From positions 1 through 24,746 of IMG/VR virus record IMGVR_UViG_3300036823_000231: DNA of 24,746 nt; one strand, given 5' to 3'. Source of the stretch: a virus. The notes beneath the pieces were generated by a model that was given only the letters and a program-made list of their open reading frames with translations, made no database searches and was not told the DNA's origin. Of the stretch, positions 1,058 through 16,791 are shown in pieces. Within the stretch, counting starts at the first letter, position 1, and every line of letters starts with the position of its first letter. The position numbers were made by a program, and so were the translations under genes.

Positions 1058-1078
1058 ACCTACCTGATAGATTTGATG
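1017..1078. repeat. 62-bp direct repeat, copy 1 (gene junction)
   Basis: Near-identical to 1982-2043, with one mismatch in 62 positions by eye. On the minus strand it spans the last codons and stop of the 1060-2022 gene, the intergenic bases, and the start codon through NPPY of the 104-1057 gene. The two genes are much more diverged elsewhere. Confidence 0.9.
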
Positions 1079-2022
1079 GTTGCTTCGATGTGGGATCGTT
1101 CGTCAGCGGTCAGATCGAAATGATCGTAGAGTTCTTGATCAGTCCATATCCGAGTAAAGTCCATCCTCGGCGCCCAACTCCATGCTTGAGGAGGCAAATC
1201 TTGAGATATAGCTCGCTGAGCGATCAGGTAACGAGGCAATTTTAATGCCAAATATGCGACGCAATTTTCTGCATCTTTTTGATTGTCGAAGGTTGCGACG
1301 ATAATGTATGTTTGCAGACATACATGTTTTGGAGGGAGCACTTTCGTGATGCTTAGAACAGTTCTCCTACCGTGTTTGTCGGCTCGTCCGCTTGCCGGAC
1401 CAGCCTTTGATGTAATGACTTTCCATTTATCGATGATATCGTGACGACGTGTCACAAACTCAGCCTCTACTTGTTTTATTCCGTCTTTGGTTTCGCAGCC
1501 ATAGGTGCTTGCGGAAGGCACAGGTGCGAAGTTTCTGAAAGATGTAATCAAAATTAGACCGAAAGCGTTTTGCGGGGTGACAGTTTGACTTAAAAATATT
1601 TCATGCTGTGCCACTACTTTGTTGATAATGCTCAATGCTTTTGGCTCGCGGACCAGAATATCGAATTTGGATAGGTCGGTATCGTGATGATTACCATCTC
1701 CATCGATCAATGTGCAATTACCATTATGAGCGTTTGATACGTGCAGGAAACATATTCCACTAGCGATATCAACGGTCGTAAATACTGAACGTGAATTTGG
1801 AAAATCGATGATCTGTTTTACTTTACCACCGGTAAGCAGACTGGCACGAAAATCATCCATTCCGCGTCCAGTCGCATACCAGCGCGCTGGTATCACAAAT
1901 AACCCTTCCTCTCCATGCACAAGAGCATGGTCAACAAAAAGATTGTAAATTCCTACTGCTGAGGAATCACCAGAATCTCGTTGATAAGGTGGATTCCCCA
2001 CAAACACGATCCGGTGTGACAT
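1060..2022 (-). CDS. Catalytic/target-recognition half of an Eco57I-type N6-adenine DNA methylase (copy B)
   Basis: This 320-aa paralogue of 104-1057 again starts MSHRIVFVG with NPPY at residues 10-13, IPARWYATGRG from about 44, a divergent middle, and the same kind of acidic C-terminus (MDFTR, ELYDHF, LTADE, HIEATIK). Motif I is missing. I chose the ATG at 2022 because it has the same AGG-TAG spacing as copy A, and because the frame upstream of it reads across what matches the 3' tail of a sister gene (repeat 1982-2043). The open frame does continue to an ATG at 2169, adding 49 residues with no recognisable domain; that ATG has AGAGG directly abutting it, which is poor spacing. The gene lies directly upstream of copy A with a two-base gap, so the pair is probably one operon. 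Function is inferred as an alternative specificity subunit of a split methylase. Confidence 0.78.
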   Translation of the reverse strand: MSHRIVFVGNPPYQRDSGDSSAVGIYNLFVDHALVHGEEGLFVIPARWYATGRGMDDFRASLLTGGKVKQIIDFPNSRSVFTTVDIASGICFLHVSNAHNGNCTLIDGDGNHHDTDLSKFDILVREPKALSIINKVVAQHEIFLSQTVTPQNAFGLILITSFRNFAPVPSASTYGCETKDGIKQVEAEFVTRRHDIIDKWKVITSKAGPASGRADKHGRRTVLSITKVLPPKHVCLQTYIIVATFDNQKDAENCVAYLALKLPRYLIAQRAISQDLPPQAWSWAPRMDFTRIWTDQELYDHFDLTADERSHIEATIKSIR

Positions 2023-2043
2023 ATCTACCTGATAGATTTGATG
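1982..2043. repeat. 62-bp direct repeat, copy 2
   Basis: Offset by 965 bases from copy 1. It again contains, in the same register, an ATCAAATCTATCAGGTAG stretch (which in copy 1 encodes a gene's last codons and stop) followed by ATGTCACACCGG and the NPPY codons. This looks like the 3' tail of a lost third paralogue placed before the 1060-2022 gene. Confidence 0.85.
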
Positions 2044-2354
2044 CAAGAGTTCATAAAAGCTGAGTGGCATAGCAGGTGCGCGAGAGTCGCCATACAATTT
2101 GGCAGGCATTTCCGCTTTACAGTGATCGCTATCATGCGGTAAACAGGGGGCGGTCAGTGAGGTTTGCATCCTCTTCGGGTCGGGCGGCTTCGGCTTCTCG
2201 GCCCGTTTTTATGTGTAAATTTTCCTAGTCGGACAGACTTCCCGATAATCATCCCACTCCTGGCGGTAGCGGTCTCCAGCACCATCATAAATGTGCTGCG
2301 GGTCGGGCGGCTTCTTCCTTCATGTCTCTCCACGTGCATGGTTGGCCGTTTTGC
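2023..2354. other. No clear gene: possible coding remnant with 16-bp direct repeats
   Basis: Between the two methylase loci there is no convincing gene. On the minus strand the frame of the 1060-2022 gene stays protein-like upstream to about 2320 but is broken by a TAA at 2209-2211. Two identical 16-bp direct repeats (2176-2191 and 2299-2314) each encode a KPPDP peptide in that frame. A 61-codon minus-strand frame (2154-2339) is rich in Arg and Ser and has no ribosome-binding site. The stretch is best read as a decayed gene or the remains of a lost methylase paralogue; weak. Confidence 0.35.
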
Positions 2355-3288: not shown

Positions 3289-4251
3289 TTAGTTTTCATC
3301 TTCTTCTGTTGGCACCAGCATGTCCAACGTGGCAGGTGGTTTTGGTGGAGTGCTCTTCGGTTTCTGGTCGATTCCAACAGCTTTGTCATAACAGGTGACC
3401 ATCAGATCGCGCCAGAAAGTCTGGTCTTTATCGAGCTCGATCAGAGAATCATCCTTGATGACGTCACGTAAGGCTTCCCGGAGGGCCTCACCACCGATCC
3501 TGGCTTCGAGCAGAGGGAGTGAGCGGGTAACAGGGGGTAACCCCTCCAGACGCTCCTGGAAGCTGCGTGAGGCAGCTTCCTTGGTGTAGAAGGCACGTTC
3601 GCCTTCCGCGTTACGGCGCTTGAAAATGCTGCCTAGTTTGATCAAACGATGCACAGCGGTGGTAGCCTTCGCCTTCGCCGCCAGCTGTGCCGGCGGCGTC
3701 CATTGGTCGTAACCGTCGCGGTATACCTTATCAACGAGCATATCCACGGTGATGCCGGGATTGGCGTCAATCACGTCCAGGACGGTGTCCAGGGGGACGC
3801 GCTTGATAGACCAGTTAATGGTCGTGTCGGTGCTCTGACGGGCTTCCTGCGGGCTCCTTACGCCATCCCAGGGCTTACTACAGAGGGTGAGGCCGAGCCT
3901 GCGGGCTTCGATCGTGATCTGGTCAAAGGCACTCTTCCGTTCGCGTAGCTCGTGACCCTCGGAAGTCAGGGGGGCCACCCCATCATAGCGCATGCCACGC
4001 AGGCACTCTTCTCCAGTGATCCAGAAGACGATCGGCTTCCAGCTGTTGTGCTCGATGCTCAGCTTGGTCTGCTCCGACACGCTGCCACTGAAGCCATTGA
4101 TGCCAACTGCGTCAGGCAGTGGCCCACGTGTCGAGAAGCCACCCTTCTGCCGGCGCCAGTAGGCTCGTGCCGAGTCCTTTAACGGATTATCGGGCTGATT
4201 TGGCTCGACGTCATATGGGTTGTTCCGCCAAGGTGCTGATTTTCCAGGCAT
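3289..4251 (-). CDS. Hypothetical protein with probable winged-helix domain (320 aa)
   Basis: First gene of the leftward unit and unrecognised overall. Residues about 152-224 read like a winged helix-turn-helix: helix (PLDTVLDVIDANPG), second helix (TVDMLVDKVYRDG), recognition-type helix (AKATTAVHRLIKLGSI), then a basic wing (FKRRNAEGERAFYT). The N-terminal 150 residues contain WKPIVFWITGEE and no known motif. The C-terminus is Pro/Lys-rich and acidic at the very end. The start is supported by GGGAG ten bases before the ATG. The mirrored promoter at 4356-4383 would transcribe it with a leader of about 100 nt. Position and a DNA-binding domain suggest an early regulator or replication-associated protein; this is inference. 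Confidence 0.65.
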   Translation of the reverse strand: MPGKSAPWRNNPYDVEPNQPDNPLKDSARAYWRRQKGGFSTRGPLPDAVGINGFSGSVSEQTKLSIEHNSWKPIVFWITGEECLRGMRYDGVAPLTSEGHELRERKSAFDQITIEARRLGLTLCSKPWDGVRSPQEARQSTDTTINWSIKRVPLDTVLDVIDANPGITVDMLVDKVYRDGYDQWTPPAQLAAKAKATTAVHRLIKLGSIFKRRNAEGERAFYTKEAASRSFQERLEGLPPVTRSLPLLEARIGGEALREALRDVIKDDSLIELDKDQTFWRDLMVTCYDKAVGIDQKPKSTPPKPPATLDMLVPTEEDEN

Positions 4252-4272
4252 TTTCGCGATTCTCCCGACCAG

Positions 4273-4290
4273 AATTGAACATAATTGAAC
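4273..4290. promoter_or_regulatory. Tandem AATTGAAC direct repeats in the leader of the leftward unit
   Basis: Two AATTGAAC copies (4273-4280 and 4283-4290) lie ten bases apart, one helical turn. They sit between the predicted leftward start of transcription (about 4349) and the ATG at 4251. The spacing would suit a protein binding one DNA face, but the motif is short. Confidence 0.3.
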
Positions 4291-4355
4291 GTTTTCAATG
4301 GGTTAGCATCTCCCTAAGAAGACCGACCGTGTGCCAGTTTGAAACTACCATACCC

Positions 4356-4383
4356 ATGCTAAGTTATAGTTCTTATGTGTCAA
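4356..4383 (-). promoter_or_regulatory. Leftward promoter in the left arm (TTGACA-16-TAGCAT)
   Basis: On the minus strand TTGACA (4383-4378) matches the sigma70 -35 consensus perfectly. A 16-base spacer leads to TAGCAT (4361-4356), four of six matches to the -10. Transcription would begin near 4349 and read the 4251-to-104 block. The identical element occurs in the other arm. Confidence 0.6.
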
Positions 4384-4405
4384 AAGCTGAGATTCGTAAC
4401 CAAAA

Positions 4406-4427
4406 ATGGCACATTAGTATGTGCCAT
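4406..4427. promoter_or_regulatory. 22-bp palindromic operator-like site, left arm
   Basis: ATGGCACAT and ATGTGCCAT flank a four-base TAGT centre. The site lies upstream of the -35 of the leftward promoter, centred near -67. That position is more typical of an activator or a looping repressor than of direct promoter occlusion. Confidence 0.55.
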
Positions 4428-4582
4428 GAGACACATTGCTTGAGGGTCGGGGGATTTACGCCATCTCCCCCTGTCGTCTCAGGGTATTAGACAGAATCTC
4501 AACTCTAAGACATAACTAAAATAACTTATCCGTCAAATGACGTAAATCCCCCGACCTAAATTAACATCAAGCAATGTGTCTC

Positions 4583-4604
4583 ATGGCACATACTAATGTG
4601 CCAT
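4583..4604. promoter_or_regulatory. 22-bp palindromic operator-like site, right arm
   Basis: Mirror copy of the left-arm palindrome. The two sites are about 177 bp centre to centre, so one dimeric regulator could bind both and loop the intervening DNA. The Rha-like regulator (4996) and the winged-helix protein (3289-4251) are the nearest candidates; this is inference. Confidence 0.55.
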
Positions 4605-4626
4605 TTTTGGTTACGAATCTCAGCTT

Positions 4627-4654
4627 TTGACACATAAGAACTATAACTTAGCAT
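4627..4654 (+). promoter_or_regulatory. Rightward promoter in the right arm (TTGACA-16-TAGCAT)
   Basis: TTGACA at 4627-4632, 16-base spacer, TAGCAT at 4649-4654, predicted start near 4661. It reads towards the Rha-like gene at 4996, but an intrinsic terminator (4823-4873) intervenes. The primary product could therefore be a short RNA of about 210 nt, or a leader subject to attenuation or antitermination. Confidence 0.6.
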
Positions 4655-4770
4655 GGGTATGGTAGTTTGAAACCGGCACACGGTCGGTCTTCTTATGCGA
4701 CCGCTAACCCATTGATTTATTCTGCAAGTCGTTGATATCACTACATTTTTTGGTCGGGAAGTTTTTGTCG

Positions 4771-4786
4771 CGAATCCCGGGATTCG
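4771..4786. promoter_or_regulatory. 16-bp perfect palindrome
   Basis: CGAATCCCGGGATTCG is fully self-complementary with no loop. It lies in the rightward leader between the promoter and the terminator, and is most simply read as a protein-binding site. Confidence 0.5.
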
Positions 4787-4822
4787 ATTCTAGTGCTCAG
4801 GATGTCCTGACCACATGGTCAA

Positions 4823-4873
4823 GCGAGCTCGAATTTTTGGCGGATTTCAGCCAAAAATTCGAGCTCGCTTTTT
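4823..4873 (+). terminator. Intrinsic terminator or attenuator upstream of the Rha-like gene
   Basis: A perfect 19-bp stem (4823-4841 with 4850-4868) with an 8-base loop is followed immediately by TTTTT on the plus strand. It stands about 120 bases upstream of the gene start and downstream of the mirrored promoter, so it can cut transcription before the gene. It is preceded by TGACCA-CA-TGGTCA (4807-4820), another dyad. Confidence 0.8.
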
Positions 4874-4909
4874 GCCTTGCGCCGGATTCGAGATCGAATG
4901 TAGGGTTGG

Positions 4910-4940
4910 GGAGCAGGGACACGTGGTGTGTCCCTGCTCC
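4910..4940. promoter_or_regulatory. 13-bp perfect hairpin in the leader
   Basis: GGAGCAGGGACAC (4910-4922) pairs with GTGTCCCTGCTCC (4928-4940) across a 5-base loop. No T-tract follows. Directly downstream, TGACCA-G-TGGTC (4942-4953) repeats the dyad seen before the terminator. Together these make a highly structured leader. Confidence 0.6.
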
Positions 4941-4978
4941 GTGACCAGTGGTCGCCAGACCCCTGGTCAGCAACCTCT

Positions 4979-4994
4979 AGACAGGAGCGTGTCT
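4979..4994 (+). promoter_or_regulatory. Shine-Dalgarno presented in a small hairpin loop
   Basis: AGACA (4979-4983) and TGTCT (4990-4994) form a 5-bp stem ending one base before the ATG at 4996. AGGAG, the ribosome-binding site, lies at the stem-loop junction (4983-4987). This sets the start of the Rha-like gene and may modulate its translation. Confidence 0.45.
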
Positions 4995-4995
4995 A

Positions 4996-5904
4996 ATGGC
5001 TATCGACAGACTATACGAATTAGTGGAGGCATCCAAGAGTCCTCGAACGGAGGGCATGCCCCTGTTCGAGGGTGTCGGTGAACTGTGGGTCAACACGCGC
5101 GATCTGGCGAAGAAGTTCAATCGAAAGCATGTTGCTGTGCTTCGTGACGTAGGGGTGCTTCAATCGCACCATGAAGGTATTGTCGCTGAAGTGGCGGATA
5201 CGCCATACGACGGACCCGTTGATCGGTTTCGTATTCGTTCTAGGATCTACCAGGACTCTCAGAATAGGGCGAAATCCAGTTACGACCTCAATTTTGACGC
5301 CGCTTTCGAGCTGGTGATGCCGTGGCGTGGTAAATATGCCGAAGCGTTTCGCGCGGCATTCTTAGAAATGTTTAAGAATCGTCGGGCTGACGTCGGACTG
5401 TTTCAGTATGGCGGTGCGCCGAAGGACGGTCCTGGACAGGATCGCTGGAAGCCGCGTAAGCGTCCGAACCCATTCGACGTGCCCGGTGCGGTGGGTGATA
5501 TCCCTTACGACGCCAATCACCAAGAGCTCTATCGGTCGCCGCAGCGCATCATGCTGCCGCTTGAGGATGCCGTATTAGAGGCTGAGATTCAGAAAACCTG
5601 CCGTGGCAGATCGCGTGACCGGAATGGGAATCTCCCGAAAGGGGTTGAGCAAAGCCAGGAATATTTACTCATGGCTGGCTGGATGCGTGTTATTGCATGG
5701 GTTAACAAGTACAAGGACGAGGAATATTGGCATGCTATACGCAACGATATAGATTTAGGGCGGCCTCGGCGTGATTGGATCGCTTATTATGACACGGATG
5801 GGTATCACCCAGACGCCTACACGGATGCAAGTGGCCAGCTAGTTCTGCCACCGAAGTATACGATTCCCATCGCAGGCGATGAGCCCCTCCTGAAACTTAG
5901 TTAG
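4996..5904 (+). CDS. Rha-family phage regulatory protein
   Basis: The N-terminal part resembles the phage Rha regulator domain (pRha family). It has a VNTRDLAKKF helix-turn-helix-like stretch (32-41) and KHVAVLRDV (44-52), which corresponds to the family's 'H-NVLRDI' phrase. These are followed by YQDSQNRAKSSYDLNFDAAF (85-104), matching the 'Y-x-NSQNKxxPxYxMTRDGF' phrase, and by an amphipathic helix (KYAEAFRAAFLEMFKNR) matching its end. Residues 140-302 are an unrelated extension with no motif I recognise. The start has AGGAG eight bases upstream. The gene is alone on its strand, preceded by a structured leader with a terminator and followed by a bidirectional hairpin. It probably controls the phage developmental switch; its DNA target is unknown. 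Family call fairly firm; the extended C-terminus is unusual. Confidence 0.75.
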   Translation: MAIDRLYELVEASKSPRTEGMPLFEGVGELWVNTRDLAKKFNRKHVAVLRDVGVLQSHHEGIVAEVADTPYDGPVDRFRIRSRIYQDSQNRAKSSYDLNFDAAFELVMPWRGKYAEAFRAAFLEMFKNRRADVGLFQYGGAPKDGPGQDRWKPRKRPNPFDVPGAVGDIPYDANHQELYRSPQRIMLPLEDAVLEAEIQKTCRGRSRDRNGNLPKGVEQSQEYLLMAGWMRVIAWVNKYKDEEYWHAIRNDIDLGRPRRDWIAYYDTDGYHPDAYTDASGQLVLPPKYTIPIAGDEPLLKLS

Positions 5905-5910
5905 TCAAAC

Positions 5911-5944
5911 CAACGCAGTCGGAGTCGTGACTCCGACTGCGTTG
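5911..5944. terminator. Bidirectional hairpin between convergent genes
   Basis: A perfect 16-bp inverted repeat (5911-5926 with 5929-5944) lies between the stop of the Rha-like gene and the stop of the leftward glycosidase. The position fits a shared terminator, although neither flank has a strong U-tract. Confidence 0.65.
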
Positions 5945-5952
5945 CAAGATCG

Positions 5953-7716
5953 TCAACTTCTTGGCGCGGTATAGGTGATGGTCAATGAAAATGATGAACC
6001 ATCATTTTCTGGCAGCGTAGATACGGGCAAACTCACTCCAGTCAGCCAAATTGTGTACCAACCGCTTATCGTGGTCAGAGTATCGATTGTGGTGGAAGTC
6101 CCCCCTGCCAACAACGAGCCATTGCAAATCGGATTTTGATTCGGATCGGTGATCTGCCAGACGATCTGACTTTGGCCGGTCCAGCCGGTCTGATCCACGA
6201 TCAGGCTCGCCTTGAGCGGACTCTTGGCCGCGACCCAGATCCTACCGACCTGTTGTTTCAGGTTCTTGGCCTGCGGGATGTCGAGATCATAGGCACCGAA
6301 GAAGGTCTGGCTCGTGGGGTTGGTCGGCACCACGACTTTGACATCAAGCCCAGCCCGGCTCCAGCAGGAGTATCCCCGCCCATTGGCACCCGGTGGAACC
6401 CAGATCGTCACCCGGCCGCTCGCATCGGTCCAATAGTCCTGATCGTTATGGCCTGTATAGTCATGTATCTGCACAAACGGACCAAACCCGGTCTGCACGG
6501 TCACGATGTGCCAGTTTGGGTTCCAGACATCATTGTTGAGGGCCACCAAAAGGTTTGGATAGCCGGTGCGCTCATAGACGTAGACCTTGGCATCCCCGTA
6601 ACGCACGGTGGTGCCACCGTTGGCTAGACAGTTGTGAATCCAGCACAGATTGTCGATCGCCGGTTGCAGGCCATAGCAGGCCGGCTCCGGTAGATAATCG
6701 CGGACATAAATCTGTGGAAAGCCTTCACAAGTCAGCAACAGGGCGTAGCCAAGTTCTTTGTTGTTGACGACGGTGGCGAAGCCATTGGTATCGGAATCCA
6801 TCGATTCCACGAAGGTCACCGACTTCATTGGATCGATCGCCATCATGCCGCGACCGGTCATCCAATTCATCTGGTAGTTATCGTTACCAGCATCGTTACA
6901 CATCGGCATGATGACATTGTAATGCAAATCAAAGTCGGACGCTGATGACAAGCGATCAACTTGATTGACCCACCACTCAGTATCGTTGCGATTGCCGCTG
7001 GCATATTCACCGAAATAGAACTTGCCATTCATGGCCTTGCTGGTCATGAATGCTTTCATGAACTCAACAGCGATGCCCTTCATGTCATCAAGACGGGCGC
7101 CTTGGGCATCGGTGGTGCGGAACAACCAATCGTTTTGCGCGATCAAGCCATCCCAGACGTAGTTTTTCGGCAGCGCGTTGACTGGGCAAAGTTCATCACC
7201 AAACGAGAAATCATCGGGCGAATCGGGCACCGGGTCTTCCGGCACGCGTGGCGGATCGCCACGAAAGCATGACGGGTGCTTTGGGAACCGACCGTTTTTG
7301 GTTTTGCCATCGGCGCCCAGATAGGCGTAGGTGCCATTATGGCCGCCCATCAGTTGGTGCAGCACGATATCGAGATGCACGTGCAATCCGTTAGCGTGAC
7401 AGATTGCGATCGCCCGACGCAATTGCTCGGCTGAGCCAAATCGCGTTTCGGCCGCGCCGCTGTACATTTTCGAACCGATGTCATAGTCACCGGTCGGGCC
7501 GTAGCCGTCACCGGTCCTGAAATCGCCTGACTGGGTCTTCATAGGATTCGGAAACAGAACATCAGTGATGCCGACCGAGGCCCAGTGTGCGGCCAGCATG
7601 CTGATCCGATCATACCACCAATATTCAGACGAATGGTCGTCGGTTGGTCCTGGAACTGAGAGTGATGGACCGCGTCGATAATTCGCCCACATCATAATAC
7701 GTGAATTGTTTGCCAT
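5953..7716 (-). CDS. GH13 alpha-amylase-family glycoside hydrolase
   Basis: A 587-aa protein with a (beta/alpha)8 GH13 catalytic domain followed by beta-rich C-terminal domains. Visible motifs (numbering from the ATG at 7716): GPTGDYDIGSK (74-84), region I DIVLHQ (D116), region II ARLDDMKG with nucleophile D210, region III FGEYASG with acid/base E237, and region IV FVESMDSD with D307. The catalytic triad is present, but the usual His residues of region I (NH) and region IV (NHD) read HQ and SMD, so substrate or mechanism may differ from classic amylases. Residues from about 463 form an extra beta-sandwich-like module. There is no signal peptide. The ATG at 7716 is chosen because AGGAG lies five bases upstream; a GTG at 7737 has no such site. 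It is a lone leftward gene between a regulator and terminase genes, like a moron. It could degrade host storage or surface alpha-glucan. Confidence 0.85.
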   Translation of the reverse strand: MANNSRIMMWANYRRGPSLSVPGPTDDHSSEYWWYDRISMLAAHWASVGITDVLFPNPMKTQSGDFRTGDGYGPTGDYDIGSKMYSGAAETRFGSAEQLRRAIAICHANGLHVHLDIVLHQLMGGHNGTYAYLGADGKTKNGRFPKHPSCFRGDPPRVPEDPVPDSPDDFSFGDELCPVNALPKNYVWDGLIAQNDWLFRTTDAQGARLDDMKGIAVEFMKAFMTSKAMNGKFYFGEYASGNRNDTEWWVNQVDRLSSASDFDLHYNVIMPMCNDAGNDNYQMNWMTGRGMMAIDPMKSVTFVESMDSDTNGFATVVNNKELGYALLLTCEGFPQIYVRDYLPEPACYGLQPAIDNLCWIHNCLANGGTTVRYGDAKVYVYERTGYPNLLVALNNDVWNPNWHIVTVQTGFGPFVQIHDYTGHNDQDYWTDASGRVTIWVPPGANGRGYSCWSRAGLDVKVVVPTNPTSQTFFGAYDLDIPQAKNLKQQVGRIWVAAKSPLKASLIVDQTGWTGQSQIVWQITDPNQNPICNGSLLAGGTSTTIDTLTTISGWYTIWLTGVSLPVSTLPENDGSSFSLTITYTAPRS

Positions 7717-7799
7717 TCGGTCTCCTGGTGGATTCACTTAGAATGTTGCTGTTCCCCCTGACCATAGACTAAAGCAGGCGGTTTCTCGCGGAGCCACAA

Positions 7800-8324
7800 A
7801 TGAGCGACCATGAATTTTTCCAAATTCCGCACAACCCACGCGATGCCACACGTAAAGATCCGACTTACAGCGTAGATCATTGCCTCATGGCCAAGCGCAT
7901 GGCGCTGCTTGGGTTGAAGGATGCTGAGCTGGCGAAGGTGTTCGGGATCTCGCTGAACCGTTTTTTTGAGTGGCAGATGGACCACCCAGAGCTCGCCAGC
8001 GCCGTCGCGACTGGCCGGGACATAGCCGACAGTCGCGTTGCCGAAGCGCTTTACAAGCGCGCTACAGGCTACCAGCAGGCTGCTGTGAAAGTGCTCAAGA
8101 TCAAGACCACCGATGGCGAAGAGGTCGTTGATCACAGCTATGTTGAGGAAGTCCCCCCTGACCCCGCCGCTGCTAAGTTCTGGCTGACGGCCCGCCGTCC
8201 AGACCTGTGGCGCGACCAGACTCATAGCAATCTATCAGGATCAGTTGAGGTGACGGGGTCTGGAATTTCGGGCCTGTTGCAAGCGGCACGCGCCGCCGCA
8301 GCCAAGCCCGAGCTTGATAGCTAG
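7800..8324 (+). CDS. Terminase small subunit-like DNA-packaging protein
   Basis: A 174-aa protein with a helix-turn-helix near the N-terminus (GLKDAELAKVFGISLNRFFE), then the phrase 'HPELxxAVxxGRDIADSRVAEALYKRATGY', a short beta section, and PPDPAAAKFWLTARRPDLWR. This arrangement is characteristic of small terminase subunits that recognise packaging sites in phages with DUF1073-type portals. GGAG lies six bases before the ATG. It is separated from terL (10208) by nearly 1.9 kb of genes on both strands, whereas the pair is usually adjacent. It overlaps the opposite-strand methylase half by four bases at its 3' end. Role inferred from family. Confidence 0.75.
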   Translation: MSDHEFFQIPHNPRDATRKDPTYSVDHCLMAKRMALLGLKDAELAKVFGISLNRFFEWQMDHPELASAVATGRDIADSRVAEALYKRATGYQQAAVKVLKIKTTDGEEVVDHSYVEEVPPDPAAAKFWLTARRPDLWRDQTHSNLSGSVEVTGSGISGLLQAARAAAAKPELDS

Positions 8325-8901: not shown

Positions 8902-8959
8902 TTTCCTTGCGGCATGTTTGCCTTTGGTATAACCCAAAGGCAAACATGCCGCAAGGAAA
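8902..8959. promoter_or_regulatory. 26-bp perfect inverted repeat with outward ribosome-binding sites
   Basis: The arms 8902-8927 and 8934-8959 are perfectly complementary around a 6-base TATAAC centre. On both strands the repeat ends in CCGCAAGGAAA, and on both strands an ATG follows, then GAATTCGA. The leftward ATG is the methylase half; the rightward ATG opens a 7-codon frame. The stem contains the Shine-Dalgarno on each strand, so folding would occlude it. Confidence 0.9.
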
Positions 8960-8993: not shown

Positions 8994-9303
8994 CCCACTA
9001 ATCAGGCCGACTCGTTGGTTGATGGCTTATAATCCGTGACCTATGAAGAACTTGACGTTGTCACTTACGTCATTAAACCAGGCTCAACCGTAGGTGCGCG
9101 AGCATTGTCCACTGATACCCATCGAGGCGAACGGGGGGTCGCTTTTAGGTTATCCTAGCACTGCTCGCGCACCGTGTGTATAGCAGAGGATAACGGAGCC
9201 GCCAAGCGACAATCTGAGGGGGAGCAACGTTATCTGTTAAACGTTGCTCCCCCTGGCGCCCTTGGTTTAAGGTCTACCATCGTCAGGAACGGAACGCCAC
9301 AAC
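8994..9303. other. Structured non-coding stretch
   Basis: No convincing gene. A TATAAT (9028-9033) occurs without a matching -35. Two inverted repeats dominate: GGTGCGCGAGCA (9093-9104) with its complement at 9162-9173 around a 57-base interior, and a 15-bp perfect hairpin (9217-9231 with 9240-9254) whose right arm includes a CCCCCTG heptamer. A 40-codon GTG frame (9036-9158) overlaps the first structure but lacks a ribosome-binding site. The stretch may encode a structured RNA or be the leader of the 9304 gene. Confidence 0.5.
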
Positions 9304-14904: not shown

Positions 14905-16791
14905 GTGACCACTGCAACAATTGCATCGATTCTGGCCGAACTTGCCGCGCTTAAAACAACGGTTGACACGACGATCACGCAGATTGCAGGTGATGTCAGC
15001 TCGCTGATTCAGGTTTCAACGCCGGTTGTGTTGACTGGTATGACGCTCTCGGGTCTCCAATCCATCAAAGCAGGATTGCCGGCTGGTACAGTCGTTGGAG
15101 GGATTGCGGTGACCGTGACAGGGGGGGCCTTCACCGGCACTCTTGTAACGCTCCCGAGCTCCAATTTTGTTATTAGCGGGAACAGTCTGGTGACGGCGGC
15201 ATCCCTTGCCGCAGGCACCTACGTTGTGATGGTCACAGCGACGCAGGCCGGAGCCACGAATTCCCCCCTGTCACAAAGCTTTACGGTTTCCGTTAGCGCG
15301 CCAGCCGAATCCGTGGATGGCACGAGCATTCCCGTTGGATCAGCCAACGTCATCGTGGATGCCGCCGGTAACACCTGGGGTGTCAACGCCGCTGGACAGG
15401 TCGTGCGTAATGGCACCGTTGATACGGCAACGGCCAGCGTCACCGAGCTCTATTACAAGGCTCACTTGGTCTATCAGGAGGCAGCTAACGCAAGCAACCT
15501 TGGAACGCCCGGCTGGTGGAGTTGGAGCGGTAACACATGGGTTGATGCGGCTAGCCCGCTGAGTGTGGTTGTAACGCCGCCACCGCCTGTTTCAACAGGC
15601 ACCGTGGCTGTTGATCTGACGAAGCCTCTCGGGAGCATCAGCCCATTTGTATGGGGCGTTGGCACTGAAGGGCTCGGTGATCCTGGTACCGATACGTTCT
15701 ATGCAGCGGCGAATGCGGGGTGGCAGGCTGCTTACAAGACGCAGAATTGGCGTTTGTTCCGGTTCAACACGGAAGGTGATCAACTCACGTGGTTTACCGG
15801 TGGCTCAACGCAGAGCACGAATATCCAAAATTTCGTAAAGTTCTGGAAGAACGTCACTTCGCCAACTGATACGACTGGAAATCGTTTTGTATTCACCGTT
15901 GGCTCGGACAAGAACGCTGGTACGCCCGCGCAGGCTGTCGCCATTGCCAAGTGGTTCAAATCCATTGGTCTGGAAATATTCTTTTGGGAATACTGGAATG
16001 AGCCAGGGGATAGCGAAGCGTCCACCTATTGCACCGGCTTCAATGCGCTATCGACCGCACTGAAAGCGTTCAACCCCTTGTACCAAGTCGGTGGACCGAC
16101 GACGGCTTGGAGTGATGGCTCATTTTATACAACTTTTTCCAAGTCTTGTAAGCCCGATTTCATTTCCTATCACATGTATCTGACGGGATCATATACAGAC
16201 GAGGCGTCACTCTATCAGGCGACGATTAAGCGGGCTGTAGGTGATGTTGCTTTTGTCCGTAATGTGTTTCCGACGTTGCCAATTTTTCTCGGCGAATGGA
16301 ATATTGATTACAATGGCACCGAATCAATGATGCAGACCATTGTCGGTGGCGTGTTCGCATCTCTGTATACGTATTCGTCGTTGACGGCTCCGAATGCGAA
16401 CGTGCAGATGGGAGCGGATTGGACGATCGGTCAGAATTCCAATTTCACATTCATCAATAATGATGGGACAAATCTACGGCCTCATGGCGCTGTACTGGCG
16501 GCGTTGGGTCGTAAGATGCTTGGCACGCGCGCGACGTTGTCTATCGGTTCTGCATTCCCACACCTCGTCGGAATGTCCAGCATGTCTGGAACGTCCTGGA
16601 CGGTGTGGTTAACGAATTATGACCTGTCAGCAGCTTACACTATTGATCTAACCGGCCTTCCAAGCGCTGGTTACACTTATTGGGAATGCAGTCCAGCGAA
16701 TCTGACAGGGACATCTTCGAGCAAGGCAGCAAGCACACTACCTGCTTTGACGATCCCAGCACGGTCTGTGGTTATTTTGTCGAGCAGCTAA
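14905..16791 (+). CDS. Multidomain clan-A glycoside hydrolase (GH39-like)
   Basis: A 628-aa protein with four parts. (1) A short coiled coil (1-35). (2) An Ig/cadherin-like beta domain (about 40-131) rich in Thr, Val and Gly. (3) A module at 140-220 containing GNTWGVNAAGQVVRNGTVDT and WWSWSGNTW, resembling linkers in bacterial glycosidases. (4) A (beta/alpha)8 hydrolase from about 235 with acid/base E366 in WEYWNEP and nucleophile E464 in FLGEWN, followed by a small beta domain. The Glu pair and the WNEP context point to clan GH-A. There is no signal peptide, and it starts at a GTG with GGAG ten bases upstream. It lies between portal and head-morphogenesis genes, an odd place for an enzyme, suggesting a virion-borne depolymerase. 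The substrate is unknown. Confidence 0.82.
   Translation: MTTATIASILAELAALKTTVDTTITQIAGDVSSLIQVSTPVVLTGMTLSGLQSIKAGLPAGTVVGGIAVTVTGGAFTGTLVTLPSSNFVISGNSLVTAASLAAGTYVVMVTATQAGATNSPLSQSFTVSVSAPAESVDGTSIPVGSANVIVDAAGNTWGVNAAGQVVRNGTVDTATASVTELYYKAHLVYQEAANASNLGTPGWWSWSGNTWVDAASPLSVVVTPPPPVSTGTVAVDLTKPLGSISPFVWGVGTEGLGDPGTDTFYAAANAGWQAAYKTQNWRLFRFNTEGDQLTWFTGGSTQSTNIQNFVKFWKNVTSPTDTTGNRFVFTVGSDKNAGTPAQAVAIAKWFKSIGLEIFFWEYWNEPGDSEASTYCTGFNALSTALKAFNPLYQVGGPTTAWSDGSFYTTFSKSCKPDFISYHMYLTGSYTDEASLYQATIKRAVGDVAFVRNVFPTLPIFLGEWNIDYNGTESMMQTIVGGVFASLYTYSSLTAPNANVQMGADWTIGQNSNFTFINNDGTNLRPHGAVLAALGRKMLGTRATLSIGSAFPHLVGMSSMSGTSWTVWLTNYDLSAAYTIDLTGLPSAGYTYWECSPANLTGTSSSKAASTLPALTIPARSVVILSSS

Follow-up and report, generated by a model that had tools for sequence, protein, structure and literature searches.

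In the switches of phages lambda and TP901-1, the two promoters are unlike in sequence and both regulators are known. In the early/late switch of phage phi29, the p4 sites at promoters A2c, A2b, and A3 are imperfect inverted repeats, and with the regulator the DNA forms a folded nucleoprotein hairpin, according to the accessible part of PMC3100819. In Cluster O mycobacteriophages, a palindromic site recurs many times per phage genome, with 34 sites in Corndog, as the available text of PMC4351075 describes. Template switching has been described as a process that homogenises the arms of inverted repeats (PMC8604942, in its accessible part). Searches of an open-access library yielded no description of a long inverted repeat in a phage with the same promoter mirrored in both arms. 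One paper on "outward-facing promoters" (PMC2784084) was set aside as a parallel, its accessible part being concerned with insertion sequences.

The locus described here lies in a viral record of 24,746 bases (IMGVR_UViG_3300036823_000231, positions 1 to 24,746), hereafter the window. Its structural and packaging genes encode a portal (PF06381), a Mu F-like protein, a major capsid protein (PF09950), and the large and small terminases. Other products include several DNA methylases and carbohydrate enzymes, among them an alpha-amylase-like protein. TerL relatives were found at seven loci in Gluconobacter, Novosphingobium, Pararhodospirillum, Rhodospirillum, and Rhodoferax genomes; five of the seven are alphaproteobacterial, which makes a host from the Alphaproteobacteria probable. 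In the two nearest viral relatives, L003 and L004 (TerL identity 74% and 73%), homologues of the methylase at 2355-2921 and of the small terminase at 7800-8324 are adjacent and divergent. The corresponding gap in the window measures 4.9 kb and holds a 96-aa ORF, a 320-aa ORF, the repeat, a Rha-like gene, and the amylase-like gene; this whole stretch is therefore either extra in the window or lost in the relatives.

Several other features of these genomes were observed. The amylase-like protein (5953-7737, minus strand) gives a PRK09441-type NCBIfam match (E 1e-64) below the curated cut-off, and has relatives of 52-56% identity in four viral loci (L032, L033, L034, and L039) among 109 examined, with a fifth (L035) matching over 35 residues only. 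Two tandem Eco57I-type methylase-like ORFs (104-1057 and 1060-2169, minus strand) share repeated DNA (204 bp at 75% and 108 bp at 81%), an apparent tandem duplication. A 628-aa protein (14905-16791, plus strand) encoded amid the structural genes matches glycosyl hydrolase family 39. Strong hairpins with stems of 26, 16, and 15 bp at 8902-8959, 5911-5944, and 9217-9254, respectively, are probably terminators or other intergenic structures. Upstream of the methylase, L003 (3068-3592) and L004 (1386-1913) carry products of NusG/RfaH-like look, as judged by eye on the sequence; none was noticed in the window.

Table 1. Coordinates of the inverted repeat, its putative control elements, and the adjoining genes.
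Feature	Position	Strand	Basis
Left arm, reading outward	4294..4464	-	alignment
Right arm, reading outward	4537..4716	+	alignment
Unpaired centre of 72 nt, outside the repeat	4465..4536	.	
Left-arm core of 102 bp, with a perfect inverted copy at 4567-4668	4342..4443	.	
Right-arm core of 102 bp	4567..4668	.	
Promoter-like TTGACA-16-TAGCAT, leftward, start expected near 4349	4356..4383	-	consensus only
Promoter-like TTGACA-16-TAGCAT, rightward, start expected near 4661	4627..4654	+	consensus only
Palindrome of 22 bp (ATGGCACAT-N4-ATGTGCCAT), left arm, candidate operator; terminator-like on the minus strand	4406..4427	.	
Palindrome of 22 bp, right arm, candidate operator	4583..4604	.	
Four GRCACAT half-sites, left arm; starts 4375-, 4408+, 4419-, 4430+; steps 33, 11, 11	4375..4436		
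Four GRCACAT half-sites, right arm; starts 4574-, 4585+, 4596-, 4629+; steps 11, 11, 33	4574..4635		
Orphan 320-aa ORF, first gene leftward, methylases beyond	3289..4251	-	
302-aa protein with an N-terminal Rha (Phage_pRha) domain	4996..5904	+	
Intrinsic terminator-like hairpin with T-tract, between right promoter and Rha-like gene	4822..4869	+	
Hairpin with 13-bp stem, in the leader of the Rha-like gene	4910..4940	+	

In a self-comparison, a 421-base stretch (4295-4715) matches its own reverse complement with an E value of 1e-116. An ungapped search gives arms of 149 nt (4295-4443 and 4567-4715) that are 95% complementary; another 20 nt on each side also pair (4445-4464 and 4537-4556). In the gapped alignment of the arms, 163 of 180 columns are identical, the remainder amounting to 10 difference events, and the right arm carries 9 extra nt on its inner side relative to the left. 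The folding energy of the repeat as RNA is -301 kcal/mol vs -102 +/- 6 for 100 shuffles (z -33). The inverted repeat is thus confirmed as real and far beyond chance, and an earlier sequence-only reading, which had described a perfect repeat of 102 bp within an imperfect one of more than 150 bp, is borne out by the self-comparison and the gapped alignment. Both sides of the repeat finish in sharp, perfect 13-bp ends (TCAATGGGTTAGC). An extension of the homology past 4294/4716 (GGTCGGGA ... TCGCGAA on both sides) was dropped, 29 of 500 shuffles scoring as high. At the Rfam gathering score, the window gave no match to a described structured RNA.

The repeat sits exactly between one leftward and one rightward gene, a position that favours a role as a promoter/operator region. 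We read it as one phage promoter/operator unit duplicated in inverted orientation between divergent gene blocks, with a core that would have been homogenised, and give this reading a probability of about one half; the best description of the repeat is then a variant of the known divergent phage control regions and switches. Followed outward, the right arm presents ATGTGTC (4574), the palindrome GGCACAT-N4-ATGTGCC (4585 and 4596), a T-run, and TTGACACAT; within the latter, the -35 element overlaps the half-site GACACAT (4629), and TAGCAT lies 16 bp past TTGACA. The left arm mirrors this order, so that one half-site overlaps each -35. The identical promoter-like sequence and palindrome that the sequence-only reading had assigned to each arm, facing outward at a divergent junction, are indeed present in both. 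Judged by consensus, the two promoter-like sites would fire in opposite directions between divergent genes, as in a divergent phage promoter region. They are also two of the five sites that score at least 10/12 in a scan of the whole window with spacers of 15-19, which speaks for the promoter/operator reading; their -10 hexamers, with 4/6 matches, and their spacer of 16 speak against it.

The half-sites add to this picture. GRCACAT occurs 10 times in the 24.7-kb window, and eight of these occurrences lie within the repeat, four to each arm, which supports the promoter/operator reading; the other two are single GGCACAT sites. The starts at 4574, 4585, 4596, and 4629 differ by multiples of 11 and fit alternating orientation. 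The motif was noticed after the fact, and 11 of 1000 dinucleotide shuffles of an arm hold some transition-degenerate 7-mer family with at least four members, which makes the array no more than modestly unusual. It is suggestive of a candidate operator array for a predicted regulator. The two palindromes are 177 bp apart. Each, together with the T's that follow, is terminator-like for transcription leaving the centre, and hence might act as an operator or as an upstream insulator. The arms are identical over the 102 bp that hold promoter, palindrome, and half-sites and differ outside, again in favour of the promoter/operator reading. No homologue in which conservation of the motifs could be followed was found, which counts against it.

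In the mechanism proposed here, each arm would contribute an outward sigma-70-type promoter with a GRCACAT array, including the full palindrome, just upstream. A dimeric regulator would occupy the half-sites and the palindrome in both arms, possibly bridging the two palindromes by a DNA loop. Because one half-site overlaps the -35, occupancy would act on both promoters together, either repressing or setting them jointly. The left promoter would read directly into the 320-aa gene, and the right promoter into a structured leader stopped by the terminator near 4875. Copying from arm to arm, by template switching or gene conversion, may maintain the identity of the core.

The flanks of the two putative promoters are not alike. 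Leftward, 98 nt separate the expected start from the 320-aa ORF, and the leader is short and of unremarkable structure (z +0.5). Rightward, the distance from the expected start to the Rha-like ORF is 335 nt and the leader is highly structured vs shuffles (z -7.9). It includes the terminator, a 20-bp stem followed by T's, and no promoter-like site of at least 9/12 was found between this hairpin and the Rha-like gene. The right arm probably yields a leader RNA of ~210 nt unless termination is relieved, and the Rha-like gene would depend for its expression on read-through, on antitermination, or on a weak promoter distinct from that of the arm. Since terminator and structured leader exist on the right side only, the two directions would not be equivalent after initiation. 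The earlier proposal that a shared regulator controls both directions equally accordingly divides: sharing is plausible, given four half-sites in the same register in each arm, and equality is not supported, the terminator being rightward only. Likewise, the outward orientation of the two sites towards the methylases and the Rha-like gene holds, with the 320-aa ORF preceding the methylases on the left and the terminator preceding the Rha-like gene on the right.

Neither neighbour could be identified as the regulator of the arm half-sites, a point against the promoter/operator reading. The 320-aa protein has no relatives in viral contigs, plasmids, phages, or the 109 loci, and gives a sub-threshold MarR-like profile match (E 0.12); its PDB matches (best E 0.006, to HIV protease constructs) were judged spurious. 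The Rha domain of the other neighbour is weak, at 34.2 bits vs the Pfam cut-off of 29.9, and falls below the NCBIfam cut-off. The only relatives of this protein are in Staphylococcus phage SpaA1 (two records, 24% over 104 aa), with none in viral contigs or the 109 loci and no match in the PDB. Structure models of the 320-aa and Rha-like proteins, computed with no alignment, have a mean pLDDT of about 35 and 32, respectively, too low for the models to be used.

During DNA replication, long inverted repeats are as a rule unstable; a perfect one of 102 bp that holds both promoter-like sites of the junction therefore suggests either that the arms are actively homogenised or that their symmetry serves a function. 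The differences between the arms fall in an outer block (about 4307-4341 in the left arm) and an inner block (the 9 extra nt of the right arm and one substitution). A perfect run of 102 among 180 columns has a permutation p of 0.002 when the 10 events are taken singly; when events at most 6 columns apart are merged into four, p rises to 0.16, which counts against the promoter/operator reading. Uneven divergence is thus suggested and not proven. The recent duplication or gene conversion postulated by the sequence-only reading is compatible with these data, without the clustering of differences being established. It is unlikely that the repeat is a neutral inverted duplication made by template switching, homogenised by quasi-palindrome correction, with one promoter in use. 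Arm homogenisation of this kind is described (PMC8604942, accessible part), the identity extends even to the promoter spacers, more than promoter function needs, and the terminator would block rightward use. On the other side, both promoter copies face genes in the correct orientation, and the outer arm ends become identical again beyond the diverged block. Rather doubtful, too, is a more elaborate switch made of mirrored promoter/operator units kept identical through arm-to-arm copying, one direction being gated by the terminator. The outward promoters would then be coupled both by their regulation and by their sequence, and pairing of the arms, as a cruciform or as an RNA hairpin on read-through, may be part of the control.

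The same differences bear on the possibility of an assembly artefact, an inverted chimera of amplified DNA. The record is of the IMG/VR type and hence probably an assembled contig, and a perfect inverted repeat of 102 bp can confuse short k-mer assembly, so that the orientation of the centre may be ambiguous. A chimera from one molecule would, however, show no differences, whereas 10 events flank the core, and the inner 20 nt pair separately from the outer part; an artefact is very improbable.

The repeat is single-copy in the window, and blastn found no homologues in phages or plasmids. Exact searches were empty as well, for a 27-mer, the palindrome-plus-T-run, and the triple half-site patterns in IMG/VR, and for a 24-mer in GTDB genomes. 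The repeat, the 320-aa protein, and the Rha-like protein were not found in 397 Gluconobacter-family genomes, nor the repeat in 317 genomes of the order of the Rhodospirillum MAG; with no positive control in these genome searches, their empty answers are weak. Among 12 TerL-relative genomes or records, a 28-bp match of 83% in L031 was put down to chance and seems to lie within a long reading frame. The 109 loci, which were gathered via relatives of the window's proteins (1.68 Mb) and include overlapping records, e.g., L003 and L037, show no similarity to the intergenic region and, outside the window, no comparable inverted repeat at word size 11; they also hold no relatives of the 96-aa ORF. 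A word-7 scan of L003-L023 returned one self-complementary stretch of 68 bp (L008, 6285-6352), which the word-11 scan had missed, the latter being thus less sensitive to short hairpins. Single-arm versions, which the sequence-only reading had proposed to look for in other phage genomes, were not found in the collections searched, from which records very close to the window may be missing.

These searches also weigh on the idea that the repeat is a small non-coding mobile element of ~421 bp, MITE-like or a remnant resembling the mobile elements of mycobacteriophages, whose long terminal repeats carry outward promoters by chance. Its sharp, perfect ends would suit such an element, as would the stretch between methylase and small terminase that is extra relative to L003/L004, or lost there. 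Yet no second copy exists in the window or was found in the phages, plasmids, and 714 genomes searched; a target duplication is unconvincing (by eye, at best TTT on each side); no transposase or recombinase was seen among the window proteins scanned; and there was no empty site for comparison. The multiplication at unrelated loci with target-site duplications by which the earlier reading would have recognised a mobile element did not appear, and such an element is a rather unlikely source of the repeat.

The region could also serve as a replication origin or DNA-processing site, in which the long hairpin and the hairpins at 4771-4786, 4822-4869, and 4910-4940 would act as folded DNA. Five of the 14 palindromes of the window with arms of at least 8 bp fall between 4406 and 4940, and the 744 bp from 4252 to 4995 contain no convincing gene. 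Against this, no replication gene was recognised nearby, there is no array of direct-repeat iterons, no sharp GC-skew turn occurs at the repeat, and the 72 unpaired bases of the centre interrupt the palindrome and do not fit the continuous one expected for telomere resolution by a protelomerase. An origin is accordingly quite unlikely.

Should both promoters of the preferred promoter/operator duplication prove active, the locus would offer a naturally occurring pair of promoters kept identical; should only one be active, it would illustrate a neutral quasi-palindrome in clean form.

The repeat would share with the lambda switch (OR/OL) the arrangement of divergent promoters and shared operators between two regulator genes. 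The CI/MOR switch of TP901-1 offers the same likeness (PMC7250872, in its accessible part). In both cases the difference is that the promoters found here are identical copies and that no repressor is recognised. Cluster O mycobacteriophages resemble the locus in their repeated 17-bp palindromic site with 7-bp half-sites and a short spacer, but the accessible part of PMC4351075 mentions no long mirrored arms, and the sites found here are confined to one locus plus the two single GGCACAT. Template-switched quasi-palindromes are similar in being imperfect inverted repeats with a perfect core, in which homogenisation of the arms is expected; the cases described in the available text of PMC8604942 are short and in yeast genes, whereas the present repeat is long and bears promoter-like sites. 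In phage phi29, a phage intergenic control region likewise holds several inverted-repeat sites, two of them overlapping -35 elements, although these sites are short (CTTTTT-15-AAAATG) in the accessible part of PMC3100819, in contrast with the 170-bp mirrored duplication and the two identical promoters seen here, and no relative of p4 was identified in the window. By analogy, the p4 region of phi29 (PMC3100819, accessible part) would be the closest working parallel to this locus among the systems compared here.
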